Source: Planctomycetaceae bacterium (GTDB lineage: Bacteria; Planctomycetota; Phycisphaerae; Phycisphaerales; SM1A02). Taken from it: 64,000 bases of DNA. Shown here in pieces: positions 35,140 through 45,682 of this stretch. The position numbers and the translations under genes were made by a program. The DNA lies in assembly GCA_027490145.1 (NCBI GenBank), contig JAIXYQ010000007.1, forward strand, positions 1 to 64,000, given 5' to 3'. Each line of letters opens with the position of its first letter. Positions within the stretch are counted from its first letter, which is position 1. The notes beneath the pieces are model-generated. The model saw only the letters and a list, made by a program, of their open reading frames with translations, was not told where the DNA came from and ran no database searches.

Positions 35140-36426
35140 TCAGCGGGTCGATGCGAGCGCATCCACGAAGCGCCAGACCTCAGCGAAGGTGTTGAAGAGC
35201 GGTGCAGGGGCCGCGCGGATGACGTTGGGCCGCCGGGTATCACAGGCGATTCCGGCAGGCAGCAGGAGTGCGTGCCGTTCCATGCAGCGCTCGTCGAGCT
35301 GGATCGACAGTTGCGCGCCGCGCTCATGCGTGGCCGCCGGTGTCAGCACGCGCGCCTCGGGAACGCGCTCGCGCAGGAGCATCTCCAGGAAGGCCGTGAG
35401 CCGCAATGACTTGGCCCGCAGGCGATCGAAGCCCGCGGCGTCGAAGAGTTCGAGGCTCGCGAGCAGCGGCGCCATGCCGATCACGCTCGGCCCGCTGACC
35501 TGCCATCCATCGGCACCGGGCGTGGCCACGAAGTCACGCTCCATGGCCATGCGCGTGGCGAGCGGCACGCCCCACCAGCCCGCGAAGCGCGGCGTGGTGC
35601 CATCGAACCCGTGGCGCTCATGGATGAACAGTCCCGCCGTCGCACCCTGACCGCCGTTCAGGTACTTGTAGCCGCACCAGGCCGCCGCATCCGCACCGAG
35701 GTCGTGCAGCGAGAGCGGGACATTGCCCATGGCATGCGCCAGGTCGAAGCAGGCGAAGGCGCCGACCGCGTGCGCGGCCGCGACCAACGCACCGAGGTCC
35801 AGGAGTTGGCCCGTGGCATAGTTCACGCCGCCCACGAGGAGCAGGCCGGCACGATCACCGGCTGCGCTGCACGCTTGCGCGAAGTCCTCGGCGTGGAGCA
35901 GCCCGTCCGCGCGGGGCGGCACCTCGATGATGCATGCGTCGGGATCGAAGCCGCGCGCCTGGACGTGGCTCCGCACCGCGTAGCGATCGCTCGGGAACGC
36001 CGACGCCTCCATGATGATGCGGTCCCGCCCGGTGTGTGGCCTCCAGAACGAGGCCATCAGGAGGTGCAGGGTCTCGGTGAGCCCGGCCATCGCGACGACT
36101 TCGTGCTCACGCGCACCGGCGAGGGCGGCGAGGGACCGTCGTGCATGGGCGTGGTAGTCCATCCAGGGACGTGGGCCTTCCAACCGTGCGTAGTGGCCAC
36201 GGGCTCCCCACTGATCCATCACCTCGAGCACGAGTTCACGGGTCCGCCGGGCCATCGGACCGAGTGAGTTGCCCTGGAAGTACACCAGTGGTGCGCCGTC
36301 GGATCCACGCGGAAGCTCGAATCGATCGCGAAGCGCGGCAAGCGGATCGTTGGCGTCGGCCCAGAGGGCCCACTCACGCGTGGTCTCGATCTCGGCAGCG
36401 TTGACGTCGAGGACGGTGGTGGGCAT
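35140..36426 (-). CDS. kynU: Kynureninase
   Basis: This PLP enzyme cleaves kynurenine or 3-hydroxykynurenine to anthranilates and alanine in tryptophan breakdown or NAD synthesis. The 428-residue protein has the family start (VYFQGNSLGPMARRT), the FDLAHAMGN segment that holds the PLP ring, and WCGYKYLNGGQG with the PLP-binding Lys. No other kynurenine-pathway genes are adjacent. The ATG at 36426 lies 6 nt after TACGAT; the 222 codons further upstream in frame shadow the divergent genes. Confidence 0.94.
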   Translation of the reverse strand: MPTTVLDVNAAEIETTREWALWADANDPLAALRDRFELPRGSDGAPLVYFQGNSLGPMARRTRELVLEVMDQWGARGHYARLEGPRPWMDYHAHARRSLAALAGAREHEVVAMAGLTETLHLLMASFWRPHTGRDRIIMEASAFPSDRYAVRSHVQARGFDPDACIIEVPPRADGLLHAEDFAQACSAAGDRAGLLLVGGVNYATGQLLDLGALVAAAHAVGAFACFDLAHAMGNVPLSLHDLGADAAAWCGYKYLNGGQGATAGLFIHERHGFDGTTPRFAGWWGVPLATRMAMERDFVATPGADGWQVSGPSVIGMAPLLASLELFDAAGFDRLRAKSLRLTAFLEMLLRERVPEARVLTPAATHERGAQLSIQLDERCMERHALLLPAGIACDTRRPNVIRAAPAPLFNTFAEVWRFVDALASTR

Positions 36427-36448: not shown

Positions 36449-36889
36449 GTGGCCATGCCCGAGTCGATCCAGTGGTCCGAATGCCTCGCACGAGAGCGGC
36501 CCGGCCGGCGCGTGCTGCTGGCCCTGGTGATCGCGGCACTGGCGGTCGCCGTGGGGATGGCCGCACGGGATTGGTTCGTGGGAGCGCTGGCGGCTGTCGG
36601 CCTGTCGGCGATCACCGCGGAAGGTTGGGCTGGGTGCCGATGCACGATCGACGGTGATGGCATCGTTCGGGCGGGCCCATTCAGGCAGCGGCGCCTGTCC
36701 TGGTCGGCGGTCACCATGTGCACCGTGAAGGACGCGGGTGCCACGTTCGCACGCCCCGCCGGTCGCGGCGCGATCTCCTTCCACCTTGATGGGGTGAGGG
36801 CGTCCGAACGCGCGCACGTGCAGGCTGCACTGTTCGCCTGGCACGCGTGGTGGTTGACCGTGGGTTCAGCGCGGGGAACCAAGCCATGA
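36449..36889 (+). CDS. Small membrane protein with PH-like domain
   Basis: This 146-residue protein starts at a GTG that lies 6 nt after TAGGAT. Two hydrophobic segments (about 22-40 and 43-58) are followed by a domain of the bacterial PH-like pattern (CTIDGDGIVRAGPFRQRRLSWSAVTMC). Such proteins are membrane-associated with a small cytoplasmic beta domain; the role is unknown. Its stop overlaps the start of the next gene (ATGA). An in-frame ATG at 36455 would remove two residues. Confidence 0.8.
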   Translation: MAMPESIQWSECLARERPGRRVLLALVIAALAVAVGMAARDWFVGALAAVGLSAITAEGWAGCRCTIDGDGIVRAGPFRQRRLSWSAVTMCTVKDAGATFARPAGRGAISFHLDGVRASERAHVQAALFAWHAWWLTVGSARGTKP

Positions 36890-37242
36890 CGGATCCCGCA
36901 CGCAGCTGGCGCGATGCGCTCCGGCATGCCTTTGCCGTCGAGCCTCCGGGACCAGCCACGCTCACCGACGCCGAAGCGGCGGTGGTCGGTCGAATCGCGG
37001 ATGAGATCGTGCGGCGGGGCATGGTGGCACCCGCGCTGCTGGCGCTCGAGTCGTTCCGCCCGCTGAACGCCATTGGTGCGAATGCCATGCACGCGCTCAC
37101 GCCGTTCGCGTCGATCGTGGGTGACCCCGCCGCGTTCACCACGCTTGCCGCGCTCTTGGAGCGTCGCGGGAGCGTCGAGGCGATCTGCCTGGTGATCGAG
37201 GCTCGCTCGCGGGCCGCCGGGCCGTCTCCCGAGTCTTCGTGA
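36886..37242 (+). CDS. Small hypothetical protein
   Basis: This 118-residue, mostly helical soluble protein has no motif I recognise. A central stretch (IVRRGMVAPALLALESFRPLNAIGANAMHALTPF, about 42-75) is mildly hydrophobic and conserved-looking, and could pack against a membrane protein. Its ATG overlaps the preceding stop, so it is probably translated together with the PH-like membrane protein and may work with it. The gene ends just before a large non-coding region. Confidence 0.78.
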   Translation: MTDPARSWRDALRHAFAVEPPGPATLTDAEAAVVGRIADEIVRRGMVAPALLALESFRPLNAIGANAMHALTPFASIVGDPAAFTTLAALLERRGSVEAICLVIEARSRAAGPSPESS

Positions 37243-37268
37243 ATCGCGCGACGGCGGCGCGTTGCTCG

Positions 37269-37338
37269 TGCGGCCGTCGCTCCCGTGGGGTCGCGGTACG
37301 TCGCGTGCTCATGCGGCCGTCGCTCCCTTTGGTCGCGG
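37269..37338 (+). repeat. Tandem pair of about 27-bp units
   Basis: TGCGGCCGTCGCTCCC followed by G/T-rich sequence and TCGCGG occurs at 37269-37296 and again at 37312-37338, with a few differences in the middle. The second unit overlaps the left arm of the large inverted repeat by four bases. Confidence 0.7.
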
Positions 37339-37468
37339 CATGCCTCGTTCGCTCAGACAGTCCTCGCCTGCTCAGAAACTGGCGCGTCTGTCACCCCGTG
37401 GCCACTGACTGCGACTGCGCGCCAGCTTTCCTCGCAGGCTGCGGAACTCGCTCTGCGAGGCATGCCGC
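37335..37468. repeat. Nested inverted repeats (possible structured RNA or cruciform)
   Basis: Three nested pairs are visible. GCGGCATGCCTCG (37335-37347) pairs perfectly with CGAGGCATGCCGC (37456-37468). GCCTGC (37366-37371) pairs with GCAGGC (37434-37439). CTGGCGCG (37379-37386) pairs with CGCGCCAG (37418-37425) and can extend by GAAA/TTTC across one bulge. Together they form a long imperfect hairpin of 134 nt. Confidence 0.7.
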
Positions 37469-37533
37469 GCCCCTGTTCCGCGACGGCCGCAACAGAGCTC
37501 ACCACTGCCACGCGGTCACCAACGATGCGACGC

Positions 37534-37715
37534 GCCGTCCGCAGCGACCGAGCGGCCCTGCGCCGCGCGGCTTTGGGAGTCGCGAAGGCGGCACGAACGA
37601 TGCGTTCGGAGGCGGGTGCCGGCCCCGCCGAGCGACGGACGTGAGCGCGAGCGGAACCTGGTGGAGCGAGCGCGTCCGCGCAGCCATGGGCCCGAGGGCG
37701 CGACGGCGGCGCGGG
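37534..37715. repeat. Dispersed intergenic repeat, copy B (fullest copy)
   Basis: Bases 37534-37598 match 56461-56525 (copy C) with two differences in about 65. Bases 37579-37715 match 1-138 (copy A) at roughly 90%. Copy B therefore joins the two partial copies into a unit of about 180 bp. It lies directly upstream of the GlmL-like gene. Changes between copies are not arranged to keep any reading frame. Confidence 0.85.
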
Positions 37716-37756
37716 TTCCCCATAACAGGGCGCGCGCGATGTGCAGCCCGAGTCCG

Positions 37757-37762
37757 TAGCCT
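37757..37762 (+). promoter_or_regulatory. -10-like element TAGCCT for the GlmL-like gene
   Basis: TAGCCT is followed by 9 nt and the ATG at 37772. Confidence 0.5.
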
Positions 37763-37771
37763 GCGCCCTCC

Positions 37772-39574
37772 ATGCCGAAGGATCCAAGCAGCATCAAGGT
37801 CGTGGTCGCCACCGACTGCGGCAGCACCACCACGAAGGCGATCCTCATCGAGTGCGTGGATGGCGTGTATCGCCAGACGCACCGCGCCGAGGCGCCAACG
37901 ACCGTGGAAGCCCCGTTCGCCGACGTCACGCTCGGCGTGACCAATGCGGTCACTGAGCTGCAGGAGCTCAGCGGACGGCGGCTGGTGAACGACGATGGCA
38001 CGATCCTCCGTCGCACGTCGGATGATGCTGCGGATGGATGCGATGCGTACATCTCGACGAGCAGCGCCGGCGGCGGACTGCAGATGATGGTCGCGGGCGT
38101 CGTGAAGGAAATGACTGCCGAGAGCGCCAAGCGTGCGGCGCTTGGTGCGGGCGCGATCGTGATGGACACCATCGCGAGCAACGACCGTCGCCGGCCGCAC
38201 GAGCAGGTGCAGCGCATCCGCGAGCTGCGGCCCGACATGGTCCTCATCTCGGGCGGAACCGACGGCGGCGACACGAAGAAGGTGACCGAGCTCGCCGAAC
38301 TCATCGCGCCCGCGAAGCCACGGCCGCGCTTCGGCGGCGAGTACAGCCTGCCGATCATCTTCGCCGGGAACCGCGATGCGCGGCCTGCCATCGAGCGCAC
38401 GTTCGCGGCCGGGGGCTTTGACCTGAAGGTCGTCGACAACCTGCGCCCGACGCTTGAGCGCGAGAACCTGGGCCCTGCGCGCGAGACGATCCACGATGTC
38501 TTCCTTGAGCACGTGATGGCGCATGCGCCCGGCTACGACCGGCTGATCGCATGGGCCGATGCGCCCATCATGCCGACCCCCGGTGCGGTCGGCGACATCC
38601 TGCAGGCGATCGCGAAGGGGCGTGGGATCAACGTCGTCGGTGTCGACATCGGCGGCGCGACGACCGACGTCTTCAGCGTCTTCGACGGCTCCTTCAACCG
38701 CACCGTCAGCGCGAACCTGGGGATGAGCTACTCGATCAGCAACGTCTGCGCCGAGGCCGGCATGGACAGCGTGCTGCGCTGGGTGCACCTGGACATGGAC
38801 GAGCGGGAACTGCGCAACCGGGTCAAGAACAAGATGATCCGGCCGACCACGATCCCGCAGACGCACGAGGCGCTGGTGTTCGAGCAGGCCGTCAGCCGCG
38901 AGGCGCTGCGGCTGGCGTACGTGCAGCACAAGGCGTTCGCGACCGAGCTCAAGGGAGTGCAGCAGCAGCGCACCGTCGGCGATGCCTTCAGCCAGCAGGA
39001 GGGCGGCCGTTCGCTCGTGAGCGGCATGAAGCTCGACCTGCTCGTGGCCAGCGGCGGGGTGCTCAGCCACGCCCCGCGCATGGAGCAGACCGCGTCCATG
39101 CTCATCGATGCCTTCGAGCCCGAGGGCTTCACTGAGCTCGCCAAGGACAGCATCTTCATGATGCCGCACCTGGGCGTGCTGGCGACCGTGCATGAGCGTG
39201 CGGCGATGGAGGTCTTCGAGCGCGACTGTCTGGTCATGCTCGGCACGTGCATCGCCCCGGCGGGCACTGCGGTCGCTGGCAAGCCCGTCATGCGCTGGAG
39301 CGCGCGCTGGGAGGGAGGCAGCGCCGAGGGAACGCTGATGGGCCAGGAGATGAAGCTGCTGCGCATCGGTGAACGGGCGCACATCGAGGTCACGCCCGAG
39401 CGCGGGTTCGACGTGGGCGCCGGTCCGGGCGTGGTCGTCAAGCGTGAGGTGCGCGGGGGCAGCGTCGGGCTCATCCTCGACGGTCGCGGCCGTCCGCTGA
39501 CGGTTCCCGCCGGGACCGAAGGCCGACGCCTCGTCGCCTCGTGGGCGAAGGCACTCGAACTTCACCCTGACTGA
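37772..39574 (+). CDS. GlmL/MutL-like ASKHA-fold ATPase
   Basis: The 600-residue protein is related to GlmL (glutamate mutase L), an actin/Hsp70-fold protein known as a companion of B12-dependent glutamate mutase. Visible ATP-site motifs are DCGSTTTK (15-22), ISTSSAGGG (94-102), VDIGGATTD (291-299) and LVASGGVLSHAP (424-435). The last 90 residues form an additional beta-rich domain not needed for the fold; typical GlmL is about 460 residues. No mutase S or E subunit is in the window, and membrane protein genes follow, so the real role is probably energising or gating a membrane complex rather than mutase repair. It has its own -10-like element and is followed after 10 nt by the KOW protein gene. 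Confidence 0.88.
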   Translation: MPKDPSSIKVVVATDCGSTTTKAILIECVDGVYRQTHRAEAPTTVEAPFADVTLGVTNAVTELQELSGRRLVNDDGTILRRTSDDAADGCDAYISTSSAGGGLQMMVAGVVKEMTAESAKRAALGAGAIVMDTIASNDRRRPHEQVQRIRELRPDMVLISGGTDGGDTKKVTELAELIAPAKPRPRFGGEYSLPIIFAGNRDARPAIERTFAAGGFDLKVVDNLRPTLERENLGPARETIHDVFLEHVMAHAPGYDRLIAWADAPIMPTPGAVGDILQAIAKGRGINVVGVDIGGATTDVFSVFDGSFNRTVSANLGMSYSISNVCAEAGMDSVLRWVHLDMDERELRNRVKNKMIRPTTIPQTHEALVFEQAVSREALRLAYVQHKAFATELKGVQQQRTVGDAFSQQEGGRSLVSGMKLDLLVASGGVLSHAPRMEQTASMLIDAFEPEGFTELAKDSIFMMPHLGVLATVHERAAMEVFERDCLVMLGTCIAPAGTAVAGKPVMRWSARWEGGSAEGTLMGQEMKLLRIGERAHIEVTPERGFDVGAGPGVVVKREVRGGSVGLILDGRGRPLTVPAGTEGRRLVASWAKALELHPD

Positions 39575-39584
39575 GGAGACGACC

Positions 39585-40715
39585 ATGGCGAAGGCCTACA
39601 CACCCGGATTGACCGTGAGCGCACGCGTGCGGTACCGCGCGCGCCGCCTCCTTCCGCTCACCGGACGCATCACCGTGCAGGTCGGTGACCGCGTTGCGGC
39701 GACCGATGTCGTCGCGCAGACCGACCTCGAGGGGGACATCACGCCGATGAAGATGTCCAACCTGCTCTCGTGCGCCCCGCGCGACGTGCCGGGTCTGCTG
39801 CTGAAGCCCGTCGGTGCGGCGATCGCGAAGGACGAACCGATCGCCCAATCGAAGGGGATCTTCGGCATGATGAAGGTCACGGTGAAGTCCACCGCCACCG
39901 GCACGATCGAGAGCGCCAGTGACTCGACCGGCATGGTCATGATCCGCGGTGCGGCGCAGCCCGTGCAGGTGCGCGCGTTCACGAGTGGACGGGTCGTGGA
40001 GGTGCTCGGCAGCGAGGGCGCCGTCATCGAGAACGACGTGGCGCTGGTGCAGGGCATCTTCGGCATCGGCGGCGAGGCGTACGGTCCGATCGCGGTCGCC
40101 TGCACGCGGCCGGACGAGCGCCTCGAAGCGGCGTCGATCCGCAGCGAGCATGCAGGGAGCATCCTCGTGGGCGGTGCCCGCATGACCATCGACGCCATCC
40201 GCCGTGCCATCGAGCTCGGCGTGGCGGCGATCGTGTCGGGCGGGATCGATGATGCCGACCTGAAGGCGCTGCTCGGACATGATCTCGGCGTGGCGATCAC
40301 CGGCAGCGAGAAGGTCGGGATCACGCTCGTGGTGACCGAGGGCTTCGGCGACATCGCGATGGCTGCCCGCACGCACGGCCTGCTCGCGTCGCATGCCGGG
40401 CACGCCGCGAGCGTGAACGGCGCCACGCAGATCCGCGCGGGCGTGATGCGCCCCGAGATCGTCATCCCGCTGGCCGACGAGGCGGCGGGCGATGCCCATG
40501 CCGGTGGCGGCGCCACCGCCGGGGAACTCTCGATCGGGACGCCGGTGCGGGTGATCCGCGATCCCTGGTTCGGAGCGCTCGGCACGGTCGCGGCGCTTCC
40601 CGAGCAGCCCGCGGTGCTCGGTTCGGGATCGAAGGCCCGCGTGCTCGAGGTTGCGTTGGCCGACGGCCAACGGGTCACGGTGCCGCGCGCGAACGTCGAG
40701 TTGATCGCGGAGTGA
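39585..40715 (+). CDS. KOW / barrel-sandwich protein of the GlmL cluster
   Basis: I know no name for this 376-residue soluble protein. The N-terminal part has barrel-sandwich features (LPLTGRITVQVGDRVAATDVVA, about 23-44), as in lipoyl/biotinyl-like domains but without a modified Lys motif. A second such segment (TSGRVVEVLGSEGAVIENDVA) follows near 130-150. The middle (about 180-310) has ILVGGARMTIDAIRRAIELG, SGGIDDADL and NGATQIRAGV, perhaps a Rossmann-like unit. The C-terminal part is KOW-like (GTPVRVIRDPWFGALGTV). A GAGGAG ribosome-binding site precedes the ATG. Its place between the ATPase and the membrane genes suggests it links the two. Confidence 0.85.
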   Translation: MAKAYTPGLTVSARVRYRARRLLPLTGRITVQVGDRVAATDVVAQTDLEGDITPMKMSNLLSCAPRDVPGLLLKPVGAAIAKDEPIAQSKGIFGMMKVTVKSTATGTIESASDSTGMVMIRGAAQPVQVRAFTSGRVVEVLGSEGAVIENDVALVQGIFGIGGEAYGPIAVACTRPDERLEAASIRSEHAGSILVGGARMTIDAIRRAIELGVAAIVSGGIDDADLKALLGHDLGVAITGSEKVGITLVVTEGFGDIAMAARTHGLLASHAGHAASVNGATQIRAGVMRPEIVIPLADEAAGDAHAGGGATAGELSIGTPVRVIRDPWFGALGTVAALPEQPAVLGSGSKARVLEVALADGQRVTVPRANVELIAE

Positions 40716-40779
40716 TCGACCGCACCGTCGTCGGTGCCATGTCCGAACGTCGTGCCGGGCGCACGGCTCGCCGACGCGT

Positions 40780-40785
40780 TAGGCT
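40780..40785 (+). promoter_or_regulatory. -10-like element TAGGCT for the DUF6754-type gene
   Basis: TAGGCT is followed by exactly 6 nt and the ATG at 40792. The four membrane genes could be transcribed from here independently of the ATPase gene. Confidence 0.55.
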
Positions 40786-40791
40786 CCGCGC

Positions 40792-41601
40792 ATGGTGCTC
40801 GGCGCCGAGGCATCGTTCCTGAACCCGGACAAGCTCCTGCTGCTGGTGGTGCTGGCTGCGACGTGCGGCTGCATCATCGCCAGCATGGTCGCGGCGCGTG
40901 CAGGGAGCGTGCCCCGCATCCGGCGCATCGCCGGTCTCGAGGCCGTGGAAGAGGCCGTGGGCCGCGCCACCGAGATGGGCCGGCCGATCCTCTTCGTGCC
41001 GGGCATCCAGGACATGGACAACCCGATGACGGTCGCGGGGATCACCGTCCTGAGCCGTGTGGCCGGCACGGCCGCGCAGTACGACGCCACGCTCGACGTC
41101 CCGGTGAGCCGGTCGCTCGTCATGCAGGCCGCGCGCGAGAGCGTGCAGGCCGCGGCGCTGCAGGCGGGCCAACCCGACTGGTACGACCCCGAGCGCATTC
41201 GCTACATCACCGATGAGCAGTTCGGCTACGCCGCCTACGCCGCGGGTGCGATGGCACGCGACAAGCCGGCGGCGTGCTTCTACATGGGGTGCTTCTTCGC
41301 CGAGAGCCTGATCCTGGCCGAGAACGGCAACGCCATCGGCGCGATCCAGATCGCCGGCACCGCCGAGACGGCCCAGCTTCCGTTCTTCGTCGCCAGCTGC
41401 GACTACACGCTGATCGGCGAGGAGTTCTTCGCGGCCAGCGCGTACCTGAGCGGCGCACCGGATCAGCTGGGCACGCTGCGCGGCCAGGACATCGCGAAAG
41501 GACTGATCGCGCTCGCGCTGGTGGGTGGGGTGGTCATGGCGACCATGAAGGTCCTCTCGCCCGGGGCCGTTCCCGCGTCCCCCGCGGAGGTCGCACCATG
41601 A
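40792..41601 (+). CDS. DUF6754-type membrane protein
   Basis: This 269-residue protein has a hydrophobic segment at about 13-33 (LLLLVVLAATCGCIIASMV) and another near the C terminus (about 238-258). Between them is a soluble domain with FVPGIQDMDNPMTVAGITVL, YITDEQFGYAAYAAGAM, CFYMGCFFAESLILAE and CDYTLIGEEFFAASAYL. I assign it to the DUF6754 family from memory of this pattern; the family function is unknown. Its stop overlaps the next start by 4 nt. It should form a membrane complex with the following three products. Confidence 0.8.
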   Translation: MVLGAEASFLNPDKLLLLVVLAATCGCIIASMVAARAGSVPRIRRIAGLEAVEEAVGRATEMGRPILFVPGIQDMDNPMTVAGITVLSRVAGTAAQYDATLDVPVSRSLVMQAARESVQAAALQAGQPDWYDPERIRYITDEQFGYAAYAAGAMARDKPAACFYMGCFFAESLILAENGNAIGAIQIAGTAETAQLPFFVASCDYTLIGEEFFAASAYLSGAPDQLGTLRGQDIAKGLIALALVGGVVMATMKVLSPGAVPASPAEVAP

Positions 41602-42293
41602 GCCGTTCGATCGCGCTGCTCATCTGCCTCGTCGGCGGGCTCACCATGCTCGTGAGCCCGTTCCTGCCGATGGCCACCGGCTGGGCCAACGAGGTCACCG
41701 ACTGGTTCAACATCCTTGCCGCGATGGCCTTCGTGCTCGGCGGCGGCAGCCTGCTGAAGGTGCAGCTCATGCGCCTGAGTGCGCGCGGTCCCGGCTGGGG
41801 CTATTCGGCCGTGACGCTGCTGGCCTTCGTCGTCACGCTCTGGGTCGGCCTGGGCAAGGTCGGGGTCGTCGCCGATGCATCGGCACCTGCGGTTGCGTGG
41901 AGCGGCAAGCCCGATGATGAGGGCTCGGCGTTCTGGTGGATCTACCTGTACGTGATGACGCCGATCACCTCGACGCTCTTCGCCGTGCTGGCGTTCTACG
42001 TGGCGAGTGCGGCGTTCCGTGCGTTCCGCGCGAAGAACCTGGAGGCGACGCTGCTGCTGGTCACGGCCTTCATCATCCTGCTCGGCCGCACGTTCGCCGG
42101 CGTCGTGCTGACGGGCTGGCTGCCCGACTGGGCGAGCGGCCTGCGCCTGGAGAACCTGGCCGTCACCATCATGGATGTCTTCAACACCGCCGGCAACCGG
42201 GCGATCATCATCGGCATCGCCCTCGGCGTCGCGTCGACGGGCATCCGGCTGATGCTCGGGCTCGATCGCAGTTACCTCGGGGGTGACGCATGA
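41598..42293 (+). CDS. Polytopic membrane protein of the GlmL cluster
   Basis: This 231-residue protein is almost entirely hydrophobic, with about six membrane helices (near 5-25, 38-55, 70-90, 115-138, 150-172 and 195-215). It has a short polar loop around SGKPDDEGSAFWWIY and otherwise no motif I recognise. The ATG overlaps the preceding stop (ATGA) and its own stop overlaps the next start in the same way. It is probably the core or anchor of the complex; the function is unknown. Confidence 0.82.
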   Translation: MSRSIALLICLVGGLTMLVSPFLPMATGWANEVTDWFNILAAMAFVLGGGSLLKVQLMRLSARGPGWGYSAVTLLAFVVTLWVGLGKVGVVADASAPAVAWSGKPDDEGSAFWWIYLYVMTPITSTLFAVLAFYVASAAFRAFRAKNLEATLLLVTAFIILLGRTFAGVVLTGWLPDWASGLRLENLAVTIMDVFNTAGNRAIIIGIALGVASTGIRLMLGLDRSYLGGDA

Positions 42294-43159
42294 GTGGCAC
42301 GCTCGACAGGCGATGGATCTACCTCGCCATGATGCTGGCGGTCGCGTTGCCGATCCTCTGGAACGGCGTGACCGGTAAGACGTTCCCTGAGTCGCCCACG
42401 CCCCCATCGCAGGCCTGCTTCGATGCCATCGAGGCACTGCCCGCGGGTTCGCGCGTGCTCGTGAGCTTCGACTACGACCCGGCGAGCGAGGGGGAACTGG
42501 CTCCCATGGCCACGACGTTCCTGCGCCACCTGATGCACAAGGGGCTTCGCCCCGTGATCATCGCCCTGTGGCCGCTCGGCCCGACGAAGGCCGAGGAGAC
42601 GATCGCCAATGTGATGAAGGTCGACTTCCCGGATCGCGTGAGCGGCCGGGACTACGTGAACCTGGGCTTCCAGACCGGCAACGAGGGCGTGCTCAAGGTG
42701 ATCGGCACCGATTTCCGCAAGCAGTTCCCGGTGGATCGCTCGGGTACGCCGGTGGACCGCCTGCCGATCATGGAGGGCATCACGAAGGTCGGTGACTTCC
42801 CGCTGGTGATCACGATCAGCGCCGGCTATCCCGGCGGCAAGGAGTGGGTGCAGTACGTCTCGAGCGCGAACCCCGGCCTGGTGCTGCTGGCCGGTGTCAC
42901 CGGTGTGCAGGCTTCGCAGGTGTACTCGTACTACCCCGGCCAGCTGCGCGGCATGCTCGCGGCGATCAAGGGTGCGGCCGAGTACGAGGCGCTCGTCAGC
43001 GCGGCGATCGACGGTGACCGGGTGACGGCTCCCAAGTACACCGAGGCCCGCCGACGCATGGCGCCGCAGCTCTTCGGGCATCTCCTGCTCATCGCACTGA
43101 TCGTGATCGGCAACGCGATGTACTTCGCGCAGCGGCGCTGCAAGGCGGTGGCGCCATGA
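42290..43159 (+). CDS. Membrane-anchored Rossmann-like protein of the GlmL cluster
   Basis: This 289-residue protein has one hydrophobic segment at each end (about 9-27 and 262-281) around a soluble alpha/beta domain. The domain has SRVLVSFDYDPASEGELAPM, GLRPVIIALWPLGP and PLVITISAGYPGGKEWVQYV, which suggests a Rossmann-like or periplasmic-binding type fold. With both ends in the membrane the domain sits on one side only; which side is not clear. Four-nucleotide overlaps tie it to the genes before and after. The function is unknown. Confidence 0.82.
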   Translation: MSGTLDRRWIYLAMMLAVALPILWNGVTGKTFPESPTPPSQACFDAIEALPAGSRVLVSFDYDPASEGELAPMATTFLRHLMHKGLRPVIIALWPLGPTKAEETIANVMKVDFPDRVSGRDYVNLGFQTGNEGVLKVIGTDFRKQFPVDRSGTPVDRLPIMEGITKVGDFPLVITISAGYPGGKEWVQYVSSANPGLVLLAGVTGVQASQVYSYYPGQLRGMLAAIKGAAEYEALVSAAIDGDRVTAPKYTEARRRMAPQLFGHLLLIALIVIGNAMYFAQRRCKAVAP

Positions 43160-44193
43160 GCGACGTGATCGCCAACCAGTCGGAGCCGACGCAGGGCAGG
43201 TGGTGGATCGGCCTCTTCCTCGTGATCGCCGTGCTCGTGGCGATCCGCGCCGGCATCGGCGAGGGCATGGGCCGTGTCTATGTTCAGACCGAGTCGACCT
43301 CGTACGTGTCCACGGAGGGCGAGGGCGGTCGGGTGTCCTGGTCGGCGGTCCCCGGAGTCACCGAGGACTCCGTCACGATCGACCGGGATGTCTTCCGGAC
43401 CGCGGGCCAGTACCGCGCCGCCGAGGCGGCCGCACCCGGCCAGCAGGCGATCCGGCTGTCGTGGGACCGCACGATCGGCCTGTGGCTTGCGGCGTTCTTC
43501 ACGCTGGCGGTCTTCAGCTTCCTTGCGGGTGACAACCCCGCGTACAAGCTCACCGAGAGCATCGTGATCGGCGTCAGCGCCGGGTACTGGATGGTGGTTG
43601 CCTTCTGGGAAACGCTCGTGCCGAAGCTCCTGGCCCAGCTCGCGCCCGACCTCGTGAAGGCGTGGTGCATGCCCAACCTCGAGGGCGGCGCCTTCAACCC
43701 CGTGGCGCTCGTGCCGCTCGGCCTGGGCATCATGCTGCTCTCGCAACTCACGCCGCTGGGCCGCCATGTCGGGCGATGGCCACTCGCGTTCGTCATCGGC
43801 ACGTTTGCGGGCCTCAAAATGGTCAGCCACGTCGAGAGCGACATCATCGAGCAGGTGCGTGCCACCGTGCTCCCCCTGGTGGTGTCCAGCGAGGACGGCT
43901 CGCTGGCGGCCTGGGCGTCGCTGCGCAATGTGCTCATCGTGACGGGCGTGCTCTGCACGCTCGCCTACTTCGTGTTCAGCGTCGAGCACAAGGGAGCCGT
44001 GGGGCGCGCGGCGCGGGTCGGAGTGTGGTTCCTGATGATCACCTTCGGCTCGGCCTTCGGCTTCACCGTGATGGGCCGAATCGCCCTGCTTGCGGCCAGG
44101 TTCGAGTTCCTGTTCATCGACTGGCTCTGGCTCATCGATCCCAAGGGTGAGCGGGGGATGTCCGTGGTTGCTGCCGTGATGCAGTCAGGGTGA
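43156..44193 (+). CDS. Polytopic membrane protein of the GlmL cluster
   Basis: This 345-residue protein has an N-terminal helix (about 17-33), a soluble loop of about 65 residues (with TSYVSTEGEGGRVSW), and then roughly seven hydrophobic helices to the C terminus. No enzymatic motif is visible. A charged segment near the end (WLWLIDPKGERGMS) may face the cytoplasm. Its start overlaps the previous stop by 4 nt, and it is the last of the coupled genes. A 91-nt gap with an inverted repeat separates it from the porin gene. Confidence 0.82.
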   Translation: MSDVIANQSEPTQGRWWIGLFLVIAVLVAIRAGIGEGMGRVYVQTESTSYVSTEGEGGRVSWSAVPGVTEDSVTIDRDVFRTAGQYRAAEAAAPGQQAIRLSWDRTIGLWLAAFFTLAVFSFLAGDNPAYKLTESIVIGVSAGYWMVVAFWETLVPKLLAQLAPDLVKAWCMPNLEGGAFNPVALVPLGLGIMLLSQLTPLGRHVGRWPLAFVIGTFAGLKMVSHVESDIIEQVRATVLPLVVSSEDGSLAAWASLRNVLIVTGVLCTLAYFVFSVEHKGAVGRAARVGVWFLMITFGSAFGFTVMGRIALLAARFEFLFIDWLWLIDPKGERGMSVVAAVMQSG

Positions 44194-44214: not shown

Positions 44215-44262
44215 GGTGTCGAGGTTGCCCCCGGGCCGCAGGCCCCAAGCAGCGTCGACACC
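44215..44262 (+). repeat. Nested hairpin between the operon and the porin gene
   Basis: GGTGTCGA (44215-44222) pairs with TCGACACC (44255-44262), and inside it GGGCC (44233-44237) pairs with GGCCC (44241-44245). There is no T tract. It may lower read-through into the porin gene or be part of its leader. Confidence 0.6.
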
Positions 44263-44284
44263 CGACGCATGCCTGAAGAGTTCC

Positions 44285-45682
44285 ATGGTTAAGCTCCTCA
44301 CCATCCTTGCGCCGTTCAGCCTCGGTTCCGGGAACGATGCCGCCGTGCAGGCGGAGATCGATGCGCTGCGCTCAGACCTGAGCGCCCTGCAGCGCAGCCA
44401 GTCGCAGGGTGCGCTGGATGCCGAACGCGCGGACGAGATCCGCGCCATCGTGAAGGATGCGCTTGCAGATGCGGGGACCCGCACGATGCTGCAGGGCCCG
44501 GGCCCACAGGACGGACCGTTCGTCGGCGACAACTTCTACCGGCTCGATGCCCGGGGAACGGAACTCACGTCGGCCGACGGCAACTTCAGGTACCACCTGA
44601 ACGTCCAGATGCAGCTCCGCTTCATCTGGAACCACCGCGAGGAGCTCGGCGACACGCAGGGGTTCGAGAATCGACGGACCCGCTTCATCATGGACGGCCA
44701 CGCGTTCGGCAAGGAGTGGCGGTACGGCTTGCAGATCTCCCGGCCCAGCGGCGTGCCGTCACCGCGGGTCCCGGACATCGAGGATGCCTGGGTCGGTCGT
44801 GTGCTGTCCCCCGAACTGCAGCTCAAGATGGGCCAGTTCCGTCCCGCATTCACGCACGAGGAACTGATGGTCAACGCGACCACGATCTTCATGGAGCGGA
44901 GTGCACTGAACAACTACTTCCGCGCCGCCCGATCCCGGGGGATCGCGTTGGAGTGGGAGACCGAGCACTTCATGTGGCGCAGCGGCTGGTTCGATGGGAT
45001 CACGGTGCGGTCGCCGTCCACGCCGGGTGGGGCGGACTGGAACACCGGCAACACCGTGAACCTGCCATGGGACAACAGCCTGGCGATCGATTGGGCGTTC
45101 TCGAGCCGATTCGACTGGAAGCTCGCCGGATCATGGAAGGAACTGCGCGAGTACACGCCGTGGCTCGACATGGAGGGACAGGCCACCAACCTCGGGGTGG
45201 CGGTGGATGCCGAACAGGCGAGCCCCTCAGCCCCATTCCCGGCCGATCCCTGGATGATCGAGGTGACCGCTGACCTGATGCACAAGCAGGCCGGGTGGTC
45301 GCTCTACACCTGGGGCGTGTTCCGTCGCGTCCAGAGCGACGACGGCCAGTCCAACCAGTGGGGAGCCCTGGTCCAGGCCAGCACGATGCTGGCGGAGAAG
45401 TGGGAAGCAGCGTTGCGGTACAGCATCGGCGACTCCGGCGCCGATGCCGACGCTGCCTATCCCATGCTGAGCCTGCTCGAACTGAACCTGAGCCACTACT
45501 TCCATCGTCACAGCATGAAGGTCCAGCTGGATGTGGGGTACTCCTTCGAGGGGCTCAGTGCCAACAGCCGGGGCAATGGCTTCGCCACGGCGGCGAACAA
45601 CCTGCTGCCCGACGTCCAACCACCGGCCGGGGATGTCTCGGGCCAGATGTACGTCGGCATCCAGTACCAAGTGCTGTTCTGA
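44285..45682 (+). CDS. Outer-membrane porin (OprP/OprO-like)
   Basis: This 465-residue protein starts with a short hydrophobic stretch, then a coiled-coil-like helix (AEIDALRSDLSALQRSQ, about 24-40), and then alternating beta strands typical of phosphate-selective type porins: NFRYHLNVQMQLRFIWNH, RRTRFIMDGHAFGKEWRYGL, and a C terminus QMYVGIQYQVLF that ends in Phe, as outer-membrane barrels do. The solute is unknown. ATG 44285 is preferred; the open frame extends to 44216 but that does not improve the weak signal peptide. It may carry solutes for the membrane operon upstream. Confidence 0.85.
   Translation: MVKLLTILAPFSLGSGNDAAVQAEIDALRSDLSALQRSQSQGALDAERADEIRAIVKDALADAGTRTMLQGPGPQDGPFVGDNFYRLDARGTELTSADGNFRYHLNVQMQLRFIWNHREELGDTQGFENRRTRFIMDGHAFGKEWRYGLQISRPSGVPSPRVPDIEDAWVGRVLSPELQLKMGQFRPAFTHEELMVNATTIFMERSALNNYFRAARSRGIALEWETEHFMWRSGWFDGITVRSPSTPGGADWNTGNTVNLPWDNSLAIDWAFSSRFDWKLAGSWKELREYTPWLDMEGQATNLGVAVDAEQASPSAPFPADPWMIEVTADLMHKQAGWSLYTWGVFRRVQSDDGQSNQWGALVQASTMLAEKWEAALRYSIGDSGADADAAYPMLSLLELNLSHYFHRHSMKVQLDVGYSFEGLSANSRGNGFATAANNLLPDVQPPAGDVSGQMYVGIQYQVLF

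Follow-up and report, generated by a model that had tools for sequence, protein, structure and literature searches.

A widespread operon joining a long-form GlmL-family ATPase to an adaptor and DUF6754 membrane proteins

RESULTS

Gene content of the operon

We analyzed 64,000 nucleotides from a Planctomycetaceae bacterium (contig JAIXYQ010000007.1, positions 1 to 64,000; this whole stretch is called the window below), in which an initial annotation had described an operon of six genes, here named A to F, for a GlmL-like ATPase, a barrel-sandwich/KOW protein, and four membrane proteins. All six open reading frames (ORFs) were confirmed at the coordinates of Table 1. They run in one direction, and the ATGA overlaps noted among the last four genes measure exactly 4 bp at C-D, D-E, and E-F. 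The count of six was too low: H1 and H2, two upstream genes that overlap by 4 bp in the window, also belong to the operon, which thus consists of eight genes, H1 being present in some lineages only. Hidden Markov model (HMM) searches of 80 related loci revealed relatives of H2 in 36, where they mostly precede A, and of H1 in 21, where they lie ahead of H2/A; the H2-bearing loci include ones labeled Planctomycetota, Zixibacteria, and Riflebacteria. The median gap between H2 and A is 9 bp over 30 loci. In the window this interval is a 529-bp noncoding stretch (37243 to 37771), where relatives have approximately 10 to 50 bp, and no ORF with relatives was identified within it. H1 matched the bPH_6 family with an E value of 0.009 in the window and 6e-4 in locus L072, and H2 matched no Pfam family.

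Table 1. Coordinates of the operon genes, the adjoining porin-like gene, and related fusion genes
Feature	Position	Strand	Description
H1	36449..36889	+	146 amino acids (aa); membrane segment(s) and weak bacterial PH-like domain; accessory gene, some lineages
H2	36886..37242	+	118 aa, small; core gene directly upstream of A
A	37772..39574	+	600 aa; ASKHA-type ATPase of the MutL/GlmL family, long form
A, C-terminal domain	39230..39571	+	approximately residues 487-600; canonical GlmL is without such a domain
B	39585..40715	+	376 aa; soluble adaptor with barrel-sandwich region, middle conserved region, and C-terminal KOW
C	40792..41601	+	269 aa; DUF6754 protein; transmembrane helix (TM), cytosolic alpha/beta domain (predicted), TM
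D	41598..42293	+	231 aa; polytopic membrane protein, from hydropathy and conserved alignment
E	42290..43159	+	289 aa; TM, alpha/beta domain (probably periplasmic), TM
F	43156..44193	+	345 aa; polytopic membrane protein; N-terminal extension in planctomycetal copies
G	44216..45682	+	porin-like gene, Porin_O_P E 1e-9; not core
Second-subfamily A-B fusion	L145:5275-7749	-	also G272:C26, G286:C50, G204:C109
Second-subfamily A-B fusion	L146:6310-8817	+	

Conservation and co-occurrence of the genes

The gene set is conserved far beyond chance. The A-B-C-D-E-F order recurs in Planctomycetota, and H1-H2-A-B-C-D-E-F synteny was seen over many loci (dozens), with gaps near zero or overlaps in most. The system is not peculiar to the window but widespread over phyla. 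Genes A to F are kept together, whole or in modules, in metagenome-assembled genomes (MAGs) labeled Zixibacteria, Riflebacteria, Latescibacterota, Cloacimonadota, Gemmatimonadota, Calditrichota, and others, although some of these labels are doubtful. Among the latter are the labels of L032 (Singulisphaera) and L035 (Bacteroidia), whose contig proteins are 93 to 98% identical to those of the window.

DUF6754, the domain of protein C, was found in 50 of the 199 Planctomycetota genomes sampled and in 0 of 8 other genomes of the window's order. MutL, the domain of the ATPase A, was present in 45/50 DUF6754-bearing genomes versus 8/149 others (Fisher p = 1.4e-30, a value that ignores relatedness). 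Furthermore, D, E, and F were detected in all 14 DUF6754-positive Planctomycetota genomes tested and were missing in five genomes without DUF6754. In several Planctomycetaceae the operon genes are unlinked: the single-contig genome G024 carries A, B-C, D, E, and F in five places, all present. The genes are likewise scattered and all retained in G194, whose identical coordinates suggest that it is the Thalassoglobus neptunius genome to which L053 belongs. There is good support for one functional unit; the set is retained even when unlinked. A natural separation of the unit into modules is seen in G153 (99% complete; L144, G153:C1:268000-284000), where H2-A-B is kept and C, D, E, and F are undetectable.

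In Zixibacteria, all 80 genomes sampled encode DUF6754, in 1 to 6 copies, usually 3 to 6 and most often 5. Most of the 35 genomes of this group that we examined carry four to six C genes. Exactly one full-length B was found in 34 of these 35 and one long-form A in nearly all; further MutL matches come from fragments, from divergent fusions and, in G305, from a second copy. Three tandem C-D-E-F cassettes represent three old paralogue classes in a fixed order, each falling on one side of a branch. A fourth cassette (L154 to L161) lies beside panC (L154 and L158) and an NTP_transferase-metK-ahcY block, and in L154 it contains two C genes in tandem. Because a single A and B stand against multiple C-D-E-F sets, one soluble A-B pair appears to serve several membrane cassettes.

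The ATPase A and its separation from GlmL

The assignment of A to the GlmL family was borne out by PF13941 (MutL), which matched with an E value of 5e-130 and 434.7 bits (cut-off, 27) over the whole model. The ASKHA phosphate-1, phosphate-2, and adenosine motifs are kept in all complete copies among 12 that were aligned, one of which is truncated; VDIGGATTDVF and ASGGVLSHAP are invariant or nearly so, and the N-terminal TDCGSTTTK is nearly invariant. The extra C terminus that had been noted is present, although it is longer than the suggested 90 residues or so: the MutL model stops at residue 486, and approximately 115 residues follow. This domain contains a conserved block of the GG-VGLI-D-RGRPL type in the 12 aligned long forms. 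The short GlmLs of Planctomycetota have 416 to 470 aa.

A scored below the cut-offs of the equivalog model NF040745 for GlmL (238.6 bits; cut-off, 475), TIGR01319 (158.8; cut-off, 204), and the Or-4 model NF040744 (206.7 bits; cut-off, 600). Conversely, a profile of the long form gave approximately 1,000 bits with the operon A and 25 to 131 bits with short copies, whether canonical or not. The tree separated the long forms, together with divergent fusions, from the short GlmLs with 100/99 support by a branch of 5.8, a length at which long-branch effects call for caution.

In line with the reported lack of mutase S and E subunits, the glutamate mutase E subunit (PF06368) was not found in the window genome (2.66 Mb in 16 contigs, completeness 94%, with a single MutL gene), and its B12-binding ORFs elsewhere encode 291 to 1187 aa and are not GlmS-sized. 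Glutamate mutase was present in 0 of the 50 DUF6754-bearing Planctomycetota genomes sampled. Its E subunit occurred in three genomes of the Planctomycetota sample, all without DUF6754, and at loci from two of these (L140 and L143) a short GlmL lies beside the glutamate mutase genes. Among 34 genomes reached via operon loci elsewhere, eight of them planctomycetal, two had glutamate mutase. The operon is thus separate from glutamate mutase, and neither of the two outcomes that would have refuted the initial annotation, mutase genes in every genome with the operon or a gene set not kept together elsewhere, was observed. No cobalamin riboswitch or other riboswitch was found near it with Rfam. Given the scores below the GlmL cut-offs, the long branch, the extra C-terminal domain, and genomes that are usually without mutase, A is, as judged by these comparisons, not a glutamate mutase accessory.

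The adaptor B and fusion proteins

The description of B as a barrel-sandwich/KOW protein is upheld mainly by its relatives. In profile searches, 12 of 15 relatives matched Biotin_lipoyl (best E value, 3.5e-9), nine RnfC_N, six NQRA_N, and one KOW. The window copy alone gave weak matches, among them SPT5 KOW with an E value of 0.26, and none to RnfC_N or NQRA_N. It contains a TPMKM stretch; a role as biotin/lipoyl carrier was rejected, because the lysine varies among relatives. PDB sequence searches with A, B, and E gave no usable match.

A and B form one protein in three MAGs (L042, L047, and L072), all from a single lineage, and E and F are fused in L102. By the usual logic of gene fusions, which is one of inference, contacts between A and B and between E and F are supported, as is the proposed role of B as an adaptor. 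A second subfamily of A-B fusions (820 to 980 aa; Table 1) combines an A-like with a B-like part, lacks the C-terminal domain of A, and is encoded away from C-D-E-F. In L146, the gene of this subfamily precedes a MraZ-like ORF.

The membrane proteins C, D, E, and F

The initial annotation listed four membrane proteins. This holds for D and F, which are polytopic, whereas C and E are two-pass proteins consisting mostly of a large soluble domain on two anchors. C is a clear member of PF20539 (DUF6754; E value, 2e-108; 361.6 bits versus a cut-off of 27), for which Pfam lists no function. Its AlphaFold2 model comprises a helix, an alpha/beta domain, and a helix, with a predicted local distance difference test (pLDDT) score of 92.4. 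The first helix is followed by basic residues (4.5 versus 0.7 K+R), which indicate that the soluble domain faces the cytosol. Most C relatives carry a signal peptide and an N-terminal Fn3 domain. Both are lost from C in the window's lineage, which also has the porin gene adjoining the operon.

The E domain, modeled within the natural E-F fusion, mostly has a pLDDT of >90. A nearly invariant DRR precedes the first helix and basic residues follow the second, a pattern that suggests a periplasmic location of this domain; the charge contrast is weaker than that of C. Neither the C model nor the E-F fusion model had a PDB fold match at E<1e-3. The top matches were generic alpha/beta folds with TM scores of <0.5, from which no function was read, and the PDB sequence search with C matched only Fn3 domains. 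D, E, and F matched no Pfam family above the cut-off.

We also considered C and E as paralogues, both being of the TM-alpha/beta-TM type, and D and F likewise. Profile comparison probabilities of 6.8% and 0.7%, respectively, spoke against both pairs. In some Planctomycetaceae, several hundred additional residues separate the two halves of D (L052:2934-4751, L150 = G024, L152 = G137, and L153 = G087).

Neighboring genes

The porin gene that was described downstream is indeed there (G in Table 1), and adjoins the operon in only five loci, which are from near relatives. Directly upstream, on the opposite strand, lies a gene (35140-36390, -) that is kynureninase-like, judged by sequence alone. Besides H1 and H2, only lineage-bound housekeeping genes recur as neighbors, among them the panC, metK, and ahcY of the fourth Zixibacteria cassette, and they give no pointer to function. 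None of the eight proteins matched an anti-phage defense profile of PADLOC, and no links of the operon to defense, plasmids, or phages were found.

DISCUSSION

We tentatively propose a two-module chromosomal system in which an ATP-driven A-B actuator works on a C-D-E-F inner-membrane complex, and we give this proposal nearly an even chance of being correct. The first module would be H2-A-B, a soluble actuator composed of the ASKHA ATPase, the barrel-sandwich/KOW adaptor, and H2 as a small partner. In the second, D and F would provide the membrane core, C would offer a Rossmann-like domain to the cytosol, and E another to the periplasm. ATP binding and hydrolysis by A would change the conformation of A-B, and this change would reach the cytosolic domain of C, then D/F, and finally E. 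As a result, a process across the inner membrane would be driven or switched, most likely one in which a small molecule or an envelope component is moved or handed over. The physical complex, the ATP coupling, its direction, the substrate, and the output, whether transport, activation, or assembly, are what we infer from the gene set.

Several points weigh against this proposal. G153 keeps H2-A-B without detectable C-D-E-F, and the second A-B fusion subfamily is encoded away from C-D-E-F, so that A-B may have other clients. In addition, C to F match no recognized transport, pore, or enzyme family, and we know of no ASKHA ATPase that energizes a transporter. ASKHA ATPases do act as reactivases, such as EutA, the diol dehydratase reactivase, and presumably GlmL. 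Accordingly, A-B could be a chaperone of this kind that loads, repairs, or activates a membrane-bound enzyme complex C-D-E-F without being a working part of it. This main alternative is possible, albeit rather unlikely. The homology of A to GlmL, the several C-D-E-F sets per single A-B, and the two cases of A-B apart from C-D-E-F all suit it. However, no B12, radical, or cofactor domain was detected in C to F and no cobalamin riboswitch near the operon, and the tight gene coupling and the retention of A-B in every scattered genome checked suit a working partner equally well.

An envelope scaffold, in which A would polymerize or dock at the membrane like the actin-fold proteins PilM, MreB, and FtsA and position a C-F envelope machine, we consider improbable. 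The ASKHA fold of A, inner-membrane partners that reach both sides, the Fn3 domain on most C proteins, and a presence throughout the sampled Zixibacteria that suggests a housekeeping role would fit such a scaffold; yet A belongs to the MutL family and had no PilM, MreB, or FtsA match in the Pfam search, and several paralogous cassettes per genome would be odd for a scaffold. It is very improbable that A is an ordinary GlmL of glutamate mutase or ornithine aminomutase with incidental membrane genes. A does have the MutL domain and is matched by the NCBIfam GlmL and Or-4 models, but below their cut-offs; there is no mutase in the window genome, the mutase-bearing Planctomycetota genomes carry short GlmLs and no DUF6754, and a long branch lies between the two types. 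Fortuitous neighborhood without a common function, to which the unlinked genes of some Planctomycetaceae might point, has a negligible probability in view of the retention of the set in those very genomes, the cross-phylum synteny, and the fusions.

The presence of the system in 80/80 Zixibacteria genomes and in a quarter of the sampled Planctomycetota genomes implies that it must do something basic. No function has been named for any of its membrane parts, and none of them significantly matches a solved structure. No papers on DUF6754 were found in the open-access literature, and GlmL searches there gave nothing on such a system. If the actuator proposal is true, it would extend the GlmL ATPase family from the care of B12 enzymes to membrane work. 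It is conceivable, though doubtful, that the operon represents a membrane machine of a new class: an ASKHA (actin/hexokinase-fold) ATPase would directly energize an inner-membrane complex via a barrel-sandwich/KOW adaptor, one ATPase would serve several paralogous complexes, and the machine would be a core function of an entire phylum. Thalassoglobus neptunius, in which the full gene set appears to be present, offers a cultured target.

The ATPase family is known, and the system built on A appears to match no known kind among those compared. Relatives of B weakly match RnfC_N and NQRA_N, the models for barrel-sandwich subunits of Rnf and Nqr. Unlike these redox pumps, the operon lacks Fe-S, flavin, or quinone subunits, B otherwise differs from RnfC/NqrA, and D and F had no Rnf/Nqr family match. 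The window copy of C differs from other DUF6754 proteins by the missing Fn3 domain that is usual in relatives. With Or-4, A has the ATPase superfamily in common while scoring far under the cut-off, and no ornithine aminomutase genes were seen in the operon. The GlmL/MutL of B12-dependent glutamate mutase shares the ASKHA core with A over the whole MutL model, and differs from it by lacking the additional C-terminal domain, by its separate clade, and by the sub-cut-off score of A; the A genes occur without mutase genes and are accompanied by adaptor and membrane genes. A functional analogy may be offered by EutA and DdrA/PduG, families that were not among the Pfam matches of the operon proteins: they too are ASKHA ATPases that remodel a partner. 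The clients of these reactivases are soluble B12 enzymes, whereas those of A would be membrane proteins.

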